Shown here: one piece after another, positions 15,667 through 17,259 of the stretch
How positions within the stretch are numbered: position 1 is the first letter of the stretch
Layout: every line of letters starts with the position of its first letter
DNA from: Amycolatopsis tolypomycina
GTDB taxonomy: Bacteria > Actinomycetota > Actinomycetes > Mycobacteriales > Pseudonocardiaceae
DNA length: 64,000 nt
Assembly (NCBI RefSeq): GCF_900105945.1
Contig: NZ_FNSO01000004.1
Location: 7,010,001 to 7,074,000, forward strand
Reading direction: 5' to 3'
Notes under the pieces: generated by a model
Databases searched by the model: none
What the model saw: the letters and a program-made list of their open reading frames with translations, nothing else
Told to the model about the DNA's origin: nothing
Position numbers and translations under genes: made by a program

Positions 15667-15816
15667 GTGGGCAAGAAGCCGAAGGACCCGCGGAAAGTCG
15701 TGCGCAAGCTGATGAAGGCCGGCAAGGTCAAGAAGAAGTGCTGCCGGTCGAAGCCGCGCTGCAAGAAGTGCCCGGTATTGGCTCTGAAGAAGGCGAAAGA
15801 GGACCTGGCTGTCTAG
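15667..15816 (+). CDS. small basic Cys-rich protein, 49 aa
   Basis: The frame starts at GTG 15667 behind GGAAGG and encodes 49 residues: MGKKPKDPRK, then a Lys-rich helix, then CCRSKPRCKKCP and an Ala/Lys tail. About one third of residues are Lys or Arg, and four cysteines in a CC-x5-C-x2-C pattern suggest metal or Fe-S binding, possibly with nucleic acid. Codon use is normal for the genome (G/C third positions), which supports a real gene. GTG 15661 is an alternative start. It sits behind an iron-box-like palindrome and overlaps the convergent YciI-like gene by four bases. I recognise no named family. Confidence 0.75.
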   Translation: MGKKPKDPRKVVRKLMKAGKVKKKCCRSKPRCKKCPVLALKKAKEDLAV

Positions 15817-16122: not shown

Positions 16123-16152
16123 TAGACCCGCAAGCCCGTTCGCGCCTATGCT
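16123..16152 (+). promoter_or_regulatory. candidate promoter of trpS with leaderless leader-peptide start
   Basis: TAGACC (16123-16128) and TATGCT (16147-16152) are separated by 18 bases. The predicted start site, seven bases on, coincides with the ATG of the leader peptide (16159). The leader peptide would thus be translated from a leaderless mRNA, which fits the lack of any ribosome binding site before it. Confidence 0.5.
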
Positions 16153-16158
16153 CGCTGT

Positions 16159-16206
16159 ATGCACGCGCAGACGTCCAGCTGGTGGCCGCCCTCGGCGGCC
16201 GTCTAG
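16159..16206 (+). CDS. trpS leader peptide with tandem Trp codons
   Basis: A 15-codon frame reads MHAQTSSWWPPSAAV and ends with TAG. The two adjacent TGG codons (16180-16185) are the sensors of a ribosome-mediated attenuator; Trp is otherwise rare, so the pair is significant. The peptide itself is not expected to have a function. The frame lies 88 bases before trpS and overlaps the first attenuator element. Confidence 0.85.
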   Translation: MHAQTSSWWPPSAAV

Positions 16207-16252
16207 ACCTGCGCTGATCACCAGCGGCCGCCCCGGACGGGCGGCCTTTTTT
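16184..16252 (+). promoter_or_regulatory. ribosome-mediated transcription attenuator of trpS
   Basis: Four 7-bp elements alternate: 1, GGCCGCC (16184-16190); 2, GGCGGCC (16194-16200); 3, GGCCGCC (16226-16232); 4, GGCGGCC (16240-16246), the last followed by T6. Pairing 3:4, extended to 8 bp (16226-16233 with 16239-16246), makes a Rho-independent terminator; pairing 2:3 makes an antiterminator; pairing 1:2 protects the terminator. A ribosome stalled on the Trp codons at 16180-16185 covers element 1 and frees 2 to pair with 3. Low charged tRNA-Trp would therefore switch on the synthetase gene. Confidence 0.9.
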
Positions 16253-16293
16253 CGTGCCTTCTCCGGGGTGGTCCCACCTCGAAGGGAAGCACC

Positions 16294-17259
16294 ATGAGCA
16301 AGCTGTCCGGCATCACGCCCTCCGGTCACGTCCACCTCGGCAACCACCTCGGCGCGGTCCGCCGCTGGGCCCTCGAGGGCGGCGCGGACGACCTGTACTT
16401 CGTCGCCGACCTGCACGGCATGACGACGCCGCACAACCCGGCGAAACTCCGATCCTTGGCGCGCGAGCAGCTCGCCGTGCTGATCGCCGCCGGCATCGAT
16501 CCCGAGCGAGTATTCGTCCAGTCCGACCTGGCCCGCGAGCTGGGCGCGCTGACCTGGGTCCTGGAGTGCACCTGCAACTACGGCGAGGCGGCGCGGATGA
16601 TCCAGTTCAAGGAGAAGTCCAAAGGCCAGGCCGGGGTCCGGCTGTCGCTGCTGACGTACCCGGCGCTGATGGCCGCGGACATCCTGCTCCAGGGCGCGGA
16701 CGAGGTCCCGGTCGGCGAGGACCAGCGCCAGCACGTGGAGCTGACGCGGACGCTGGCGAAGCGGTTCAACGGCACGTACGGCGAGGTGTTCACCGTCCCG
16801 CGCGCGGTGCTGCCACCGGCGGGCGCGCGGGTGAAGGACCTGACCGACCCGACGCGCAAGATGTCGAAGTCGACGCGGGACGAGGCGGGCGTGGTGTTCG
16901 TGCTCGACGAGCCGGACCAGATCCGCCGCAAGATCCGCCGCGCGGTCACCGACGGCGGTTCGGTGCCGGTCCACGCCCCGGAGACCCGGCCCGGGATGGC
17001 GAACCTGCTGGAGATCCTGGCCGCCTGCCGGGGCGGGTCGCCGGCGGACCTGGCGTCGGAGTTCGCCTCGTACGGAGCGGTGAAGGACGCCGTCGCCGAC
17101 GCGGTGATCGAGGAGCTGCGGCCGGTGCGCACGCGCGCGTCGGCGCTGCTCGAGGACGTCGCCGAGCTGGACCGGGTGCGGAAGGCGGGTGCCGAGCGGG
17201 CCCGCGAGCGCGGCTCGCACCGGCTCGACGCGGCCCTGCGGATGATCGGCGCTAGTTGA
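16294..17259 (+). CDS. trpS: tryptophanyl-tRNA synthetase, auxiliary (TrpRS1-like)
   Basis: This class I aminoacyl-tRNA synthetase charges tRNA-Trp with tryptophan. The HIGH-type motif is PSGHVHLGN (residues 9-17), the KMSKS motif lies at 189-193, and the length, 321 aa, is normal. The attenuator in front of it matches the arrangement described for Streptomyces trpRS1, an inducible, indolmycin-resistant second synthetase. By this analogy the gene is probably an auxiliary enzyme and another trpS should exist elsewhere in the genome; resistance is an inference. The 3' end overlaps the convergent NUDIX gene by eight bases. Confidence 0.92.
   Translation: MSKLSGITPSGHVHLGNHLGAVRRWALEGGADDLYFVADLHGMTTPHNPAKLRSLAREQLAVLIAAGIDPERVFVQSDLARELGALTWVLECTCNYGEAARMIQFKEKSKGQAGVRLSLLTYPALMAADILLQGADEVPVGEDQRQHVELTRTLAKRFNGTYGEVFTVPRAVLPPAGARVKDLTDPTRKMSKSTRDEAGVVFVLDEPDQIRRKIRRAVTDGGSVPVHAPETRPGMANLLEILAACRGGSPADLASEFASYGAVKDAVADAVIEELRPVRTRASALLEDVAELDRVRKAGAERARERGSHRLDAALRMIGAS

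Follow-up and report, generated by a model that had tools for sequence, protein, structure and literature searches.

The window, i.e., the whole stretch of 64,000 nucleotides of Amycolatopsis tolypomycina DNA that was analysed, contains a gene for a full-length tryptophanyl-tRNA synthetase (TrpRS) of 321 aa (TIGR00233, 262.5 bits; PF00579). It starts 41 bp behind the end of a T6 tract, and its best named matches are found in A. vancoresmycina, A. pretoriensis and A. iheyensis (95%, 93% and 92% identity, respectively). The genome comprises 10.36 Mb in four contigs, and the second trpS that had been suspected from the sequence of the window is indeed present (C2:622364-623347). With 348.5 bits it outscored the trpS of the window, and the 450 nt scanned upstream of it contained no leader with two adjacent Trp codons (WW leader). 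A gene for a protein with a YCII domain (PF03795; 15813-16112, minus strand) is oriented divergently from the leader described below. Its likely ATG is only 46 bp away from the leader ATG, and therefore the two promoters must overlap. A Lys/Cys-rich protein of 49 aa, CCRSKPRCKKCPVLALKK, is encoded at 15667-15816 on the plus strand, and a Pfam search with it gave no match. By eye, YCII-like sequence as well as coding sequence resembling that of the 49-aa protein was seen upstream of several relatives' leaders.

The features between the YCII gene and trpS are compiled in Table 1. The leader, the Trp codons, elements 1 to 4 and the T6 tract were all found where the original prediction had placed them, and element 1 indeed begins inside the second Trp codon (16184 within TGG 16183-16185). 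The proposal of four 7-bp elements was correct with respect to the pairings 1:2, 2:3 and 3:4, but not with respect to size, as the folds have a terminator stem of 8 bp and an antiterminator of 9 bp. The region had been called a complete four-element attenuator. The parts are present, but a fifth element had been overlooked, i.e., a helix between the 5' part of the leader RNA and a strand just beyond element 2, which was named P0.

Table 1. Features of the trpS leader region (positions in the window).
Feature	Position	Strand	Basis and remarks
-35-like hexamer TAGACC (weak)	16123..16128	+	by sequence, putative; 18 nt before the -10 element
-10 element TATGCT	16147..16152	+	6 nt before the leader ATG; comparison with relatives
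Predicted transcription start	16159	+	by comparison; coincides with the leader ATG
Leaderless leader peptide ORF MHAQTSSWWPPSAAV	16159..16206	+	15 codons, stop TAG 16204-16206; sequence, relatives
P0, 5' strand GCGCAG	16165..16170	+	early leader codons; fold and covariation
Control codons TGG TGG	16180..16185	+	sequence, relatives
Element 1 GGCCGCC	16184..16190	+	starts within second Trp codon; sequence and fold
Element 2 GGCGGCC	16194..16200	+	partner of 1 or 3; fold
P0, 3' strand CTGCGC	16209..16214	+	right behind the leader stop; fold and covariation
Element 3 GGCCGCCC	16226..16233	+	partner of 2 or 4; terminator scan and fold
Element 4 GGGCGGCC	16239-16246	+	intrinsic terminator with element 3; terminator scan and fold
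T6 tract	16247-16252	+	completes the intrinsic terminator 16239..16252
Auxiliary trpS	16294..17259	+	TIGR00233, PF00579, tree; Thr8 where housekeeping enzymes have Gln

The evidence from the single sequence was only moderate. A terminator and promoter scan of 901 bp revealed one terminator-like site, compared with a mean of 0.5 in shuffled sequences, and the strict sigma-70 scan of the same region returned no promoter. The z-score of the fold was -2.79, and 2 of 200 shuffled sequences folded equally well. It is the comparison across relatives that settles that the attenuator is real. A further helix (GCTGGT 16178-16183 / ACCAGC 16220-16225), which would mask the Trp codons, was dropped, having been seen by eye only in the window and in the nearest relative.

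Conservation and start of the leader

The protein encoded by trpS of the window served as query against 150 family genomes, including its own. The best match in a genome was accepted as the orthologue if its E value was 1.3e-94 or lower (51-100% identity). On this basis, 81 of the 150 genomes have an orthologue, and the upstream regions of all 81 were read. At least one further trpS match was present in 80 of these 81 genomes. The sequence TGGTGG was found in 72 of the 81 leaders, and TGGCGG or TGGCAG at the same place in the other nine (L019, L063, L065, L066, L069, L071, L072, L075, L076). In these nine the second Trp codon has become CGG or CAG, and its last G, which is part of element 1, is retained. 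None of nine housekeeping trpS upstream regions examined had a WW leader. As in the trpRS1 kind of auxiliary trpS, a second trpS is thus present alongside a housekeeping copy that has no leader.

A covariance model, R1, was built from 47 family leaders (alignment A1). It matched the upstream regions of all 81 auxiliary genes, including 34 outside the training set, and of 0 of the 9 housekeeping copies. In this locus search E values up to 0.01 for 218 kb were accepted, the weakest match had 32.5 bits, and weak second matches on the opposite strand or elsewhere (10 of 91 rows, 28-35 bits) were left uncounted. When whole genomes of the family were searched, R1 was found in 90 of 150, i.e., in 79 of the 81 and in 11 of the other 69. 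With stricter filters, at least 89 of 345 genomes of the class sample, the own genome included, were positive. Of 80 named loci holding a trpS relative, 61 matched, all of them actinobacterial by title; the 19 negative loci comprised 8 from other phyla and 11 from other Actinomycetota at 49-51% identity.

These results bear on two alternatives. The first is a plain intergenic terminator combined with a chance ORF, with trpS being transcribed from its own downstream promoter. The mean of 0.5 terminator-like sites in shuffled sequences would be in line with it, but the Trp codons, the spacing of the -10 element and the helices recur in the 81 orthologues of the family as well as in other families, which makes it highly improbable. 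The second is a T-box or a metabolite riboswitch upstream of trpS. T-boxes control synthetase genes, some in Actinobacteria too, but the conserved region here is a leader ORF with regulatory codons, and an Rfam scan of the window revealed no family at the gathering score, the T-box included, so that this alternative is barely conceivable. A lax Rfam scan gave three sub-threshold matches, the best of which was isrD on the terminator (27.6 bits versus 37 needed). The Trp_leader model of Rfam (which we take to be RF00513) had no match in the window at either gathering or lax thresholds.

The start of the leader was analysed with 205 leader rows, 81 from the family, 68 from the class sample and 56 from named loci, some of which are from the same species; six rows of the class and named sets that lack TGGTGG had been dropped. 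The test asked for an in-frame ATG, GTG, TTG or CTG with TAnnnT 5-9 nt upstream. It was passed by 198 of the 205 rows, with a spacing of 6-7 nt in 190 of the 198. The controls were much lower, i.e., 2 of 167 at 120 nt upstream and 0 of 205 and 4 of 205 in the two other frames. A motif resembling a Shine-Dalgarno sequence was seen upstream of only 11 of the 198 starts. Two to three of the 81 family leaders had no start supported by a -10 element. The comparison therefore bears out the leaderless leader peptide that had been proposed, and a leaderless start is strongly supported at the level of sequence. Codon 8 is the commonest position of the first Trp (90 of 198 leaders have it 21 nt behind the start). 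A ribosome that stalls at this codon would thus be expected to reach back nearly to the very 5' end. In Streptomyces lividans, trpL2 (trpS) and trpL1 (trpE) are transcribed leaderless according to the RNA-seq passages of PMC8079986.

Folding of the leader and the fifth element P0

In the absence of a ribosome, 16159-16252 folded with -48.9 kcal/mol into a structure in which P0, helix 1:2 and the terminator were all present. Inclusion of P0 stabilized the off state by about 7 kcal/mol, from -34.4 to -41.4 kcal/mol. With a ribosome footprint on 16165-16190, as suggested in the original prediction, the antiterminator became the minimum-energy structure of transcripts ending at 16232-16244. A slightly larger footprint, 16162-16192, led to the same antiterminator for the same transcript ends, the energies with these footprints being -18.8 to -22.4 kcal/mol. 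Once element 4 was complete, the terminator won over helix 2:3 in the fold even with the footprint in place. The choice would therefore be kinetic, as in classical attenuators, and in this model antitermination would rest on kinetics.

The same folds were calculated for 113 non-redundant leaders (less than 80% identity), drawn from 197 with readable anatomy. Of the 113 minimum-energy folds without a ribosome, 99 contained helix 1:2, 96 contained P0 and 112 the terminator. For the stalled state, the bases up to and under the ribosome were masked and element 4 was absent. Helix 2:3 then formed in 105 of 113 leaders, compared with 19 of 113 when the spacer was shuffled. The predicted leader ORF is short and has the adjacent regulatory codons that characterize Trp-leader attenuators. 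Folding adds that antiterminator and terminator are mutually exclusive and that the codons are placed such that a stall would free element 2.

The 3' strand of P0 begins 3-11 nt past element 2 in 98 of the 113 leaders. The score of the best contiguous stem was 18.46 with the own partner and 14.2 with permuted partners (sd 0.24, maximum of 200 permutations 14.88), a difference of about 18 sd, in which the permutations leave some shared ancestry. Stems of at least 7 pairs were found in 67 of the 113 leaders, the permuted mean being 28.6 and the maximum 38. In 81 leaders the 3' strand is found behind the leader stop, 26 have it within the ORF, and in 6 it spans the stop codon. When only bases behind the stop were used (n = 107), the score was still 16.88, compared with 13.2 for permuted partners (sd 0.26, maximum of 100 permutations 14.19), so the signal is not a by-product of coding. 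Divergent pairings are kept in relatives, e.g., ATGCGAACC/GGTTCGCAT, ATGTACGTGC/GCGCGTACAT, ATGCAGCGAGCG/TGCTCGCTGCGT and ATGCGGATGA/TCATCCGCGT. Shuffle tests with single sequences were weak (p<=0.05 in 21 of 76, versus 2 of 76 for a control segment). On a MAFFT alignment the helix was present in 75.9% of the cells, and two of six pairs had two-sided changes; this count is less telling, because the register varies between clades and slides by two bases. The best stem of the window and of its closest relatives in Amycolatopsis occupies nt 7-12, i.e., past the start codon. Taken together, P0 covaries widely across families.

P0 is short (6 bp in the window) and GC-rich, and the region might be a classical four-element attenuator only, in which P0 has no role and reflects chance complementarity of GC-rich codons close to the start. 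The sliding register and the weak single-sequence shuffles would fit such an explanation, as would leaderless leuS leaders, which by eye have no obvious P0, so that a leaderless attenuator perhaps manages without it. However, the excess of the own partners over permuted ones, even with its residue of shared ancestry, its persistence outside the ORF and the many unlike pairings speak against incidental complementarity, which is regarded as unlikely.

The preferred reading is that the region is a ribosome-mediated transcription attenuator of an auxiliary trpS with a leaderless leader peptide, and this is very probably correct. From the parts, their conservation and covariation and the computed folds of the stalled and the ribosome-free states, we infer the start site, the stalls, the step with the ribosome at the stop codon and the effect on trpS as follows. 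Transcription would begin at the leader ATG or within a base or two of it, as judged by comparison, so a 70S ribosome would have to load on the bare 5' end emerging from the polymerase. When charged tRNA-Trp is scarce, e.g., upon inhibition of the housekeeping TrpRS, the ribosome would stall once Trp codon 8 or 9 has entered the A site, and would thereby occupy the 5' strand of P0 and element 1. Helix 2:3 would then pair, and the polymerase would proceed into trpS. When tRNA-Trp is charged, the ribosome would reach the stop codon and cover element 2 and the 3' strand of P0, and helix 3:4 would terminate transcription. If no ribosome loads, P0 would close around helix 1:2, mask the start region of the leader and leave element 3 for the terminator. 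P0 and helix 1:2 would thus jointly act as an anti-antiterminator, and the default without translation would be off.

Synthetase lineages and further genes behind the leader

A tree of 64 TrpRS sequences placed the TrpRS of the window in a clade of 32 auxiliary sequences of the family (100/100). Eight housekeeping sequences (100/99) and eight attenuated sequences of the Streptomyces type (100/98) formed separate clades, and four other auxiliary sequences of the family clustered with an attenuated TrpRS of another family (100/100). The TrpRS of the window thus lies outside the attenuated clade of the Streptomyces type, and the branching order among the clades is weakly resolved. Therefore, the claim is that the window gene works like Streptomyces trpRS1, not that it is orthologous to it.

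Thr8 of the window TrpRS aligns with Gln9 of the Geobacillus TrpRS, which presumably contacts indolmycin. At this position, Gln is retained in 7 of the 80 readable auxiliary copies of the family, and thus not all of them have the substitution; the others carry Thr (70), Arg (2) or Lys (1). Outside the family, Lys prevails in the readable attenuated copies (19 of 26), followed by Thr and Gln (3 each) and Ala (1), and the housekeeping copies have Gln in 9 of 9 cases. One sequence of each of the first two sets was unreadable at this position (L074 within and L161 outside the family). In the E. coli TrpRS, Gln11 and His45 line the cleft that binds niraparib, as stated in a passage of PMC10201369, and they are taken here as the equivalents of Gln9 and His43. 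TrpRS1 is given as indolmycin-resistant in the relevant section of a review (PMC9437257), which cites Kitabatake 2002 and Vecchione and Sello 2009. Because of the substitution at the Gln9 position, the cleft residues and the precedent of TrpRS1, the window trpS likely serves as an inducible, inhibitor-tolerant spare synthetase. Resistance to indolmycin via the exchange of Gln for Thr is plausible from the protein sequence. Chuangxinmycin, described in part of PMC12087186 as a TrpRS inhibitor from an actinomycete, is equally possible as the trigger.

Six additional R1 places were read, which stem from 4 of the 11 other genomes of the family and from second matches in two genomes with the auxiliary gene. 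Three of them precede genes that by eye resemble anthranilate synthase genes. The other three precede a TrpRS with only 33-35% identity to that of the window; these loci (L277, L278 and L282 from the family genera g33 and g44) have a WW leader with P0. L277 is a TrpRS by TIGR00233, and its closest PDB entries are 6ncr, 1yi8 and 2a4m, the last of which is entitled tryptophanyl-tRNA synthetase II and is presumably from Deinococcus. The same leader is found in front of unlike TrpRS, and thus leader and synthetase have been combined more than once. In the class sample, 69 R1 loci besides that of the window were examined, and 27 of them lie upstream of a TrpRS gene (blastp). Five of the remaining 42 were scanned, and in all five the best match was anthranilate synthase component I, one of them above the cut-off. 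As judged from these sequences, the attenuator architecture is common to trpS genes of the Streptomyces type, anthranilate synthase genes and the unlike second TrpRS.

Short, leaderless-looking leaders with adjacent Leu codons were seen upstream of leuS in 8 of 14 genomes examined. These include the own genome (MNTARLLLSLPR; L289, C3:312000-312850) as well as L283-L285 and L290-L293. By eye, no obvious P0 was seen in the leuS leaders of this 14-genome set, and therefore no general occurrence of P0 in leaderless attenuators is claimed. In many draft assemblies of the Streptomyces type (L093, L096, L099, L100, L189-L192 and others) a contig ends within a few hundred bases of the trpS leader, as would be expected if a repeat, possibly an rRNA operon, were located upstream.

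Relation to known attenuators and meaning

An attenuator of the auxiliary antibiotic-resistant trpRS1 of Streptomyces coelicolor was reportedly described by Vecchione and Sello in 2010 (J Bacteriol 192:3565), and the window locus is similar in being an auxiliary trpS with ribosome-mediated attenuation. Loci of the Streptomyces type (genus g69) have leaders such as MTTRTCTQLWWAA with the same helices and a P0, and several named Streptomyces loci match R1. The kinship in design with the auxiliary trpS of Streptomyces that had been suspected is thereby supported. In contrast to the Streptomyces type, the window TrpRS belongs to a separate clade, has a different leader peptide and carries Thr at the Gln9 position, where the former mostly have Lys. 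The overall interpretation, i.e., attenuator, leaderless leader, second trpS and Streptomyces-like design, was upheld in these components and is partly supported as a whole. The attenuator of the window is real, the main points of the earlier reading are correct, and the locus is a new member of this kind in a separate synthetase lineage.

As far as PMC8079986 could be considered, trpL1 and trpL2 of S. lividans TK24 likewise have a leaderless Trp leader followed by hairpins. Unlike the window leader, trpL2 contains a single Trp (MMTRTCTQLWRAA), and a U-rich sequence was not found; pairing of the 5' end is not mentioned in the same portion of that paper. The attenuators that Seliverstov et al. 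2005 (PMC1262725, in part) predicted upstream of trp operons and of trpS2 of S. avermitilis also have a terminator, an antiterminator and a Trp leader. According to the legend of Figure 1 of that study, its attenuator alignment extends from the Trp codons to the terminator, and so the 5' end fell outside.

The nearest precedent for P0 is H1 of the ilvBNC attenuator of Corynebacterium glutamicum (Ryabchenko et al. 2025), and the following refers to the relevant parts of that article (PMC11857589). Transcription of ilvBNC starts one nucleotide from the leader start, and H1 is proposed to shield the leader start, to block initiation and to act as an antiantiterminator. The ilvBNC leader has codons for branched-chain amino acids, whereas that of the window has Trp codons. 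Conservation of ilvBNC was viewed within Corynebacterium, and H1 was not confidently separable from H2; in contrast, P0 is a separable helix that covaries across families. In the open literature considered, a set that contains few subscription papers, a P0-like helix of Trp attenuators is not described (parts of PMC1262725, PMC8079986, PMC11857589 and PMC10272879). P0 is thus the new part, while an attenuated auxiliary trpS as a kind is already known from Streptomyces.

We lean slightly towards the view that the actinomycete Trp attenuators of trpS and anthranilate synthase genes share a latch at the 5' end. Such attenuators would be gated by initiation and would stay shut unless a ribosome loads before the 3' strand of P0 is made, about 50 nt into the transcript, and leaderlessness would be a working part of the sensor. 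If this is true, one ribosome would perform one reading per transcript, and leaderlessness would be no mere by-product of actinomycete promoters. What merits further work is the conserved helix at the 5' end of leaderless Trp leaders, and P0 is a concrete, mutable element for asking why many actinomycete leader peptides are leaderless. The results suggest that the attenuated spare synthetase of Streptomyces belongs to a wider actinomycete arrangement, and that a single leader design is used by TrpRS genes of at least three separate lineages as well as by anthranilate synthase genes.
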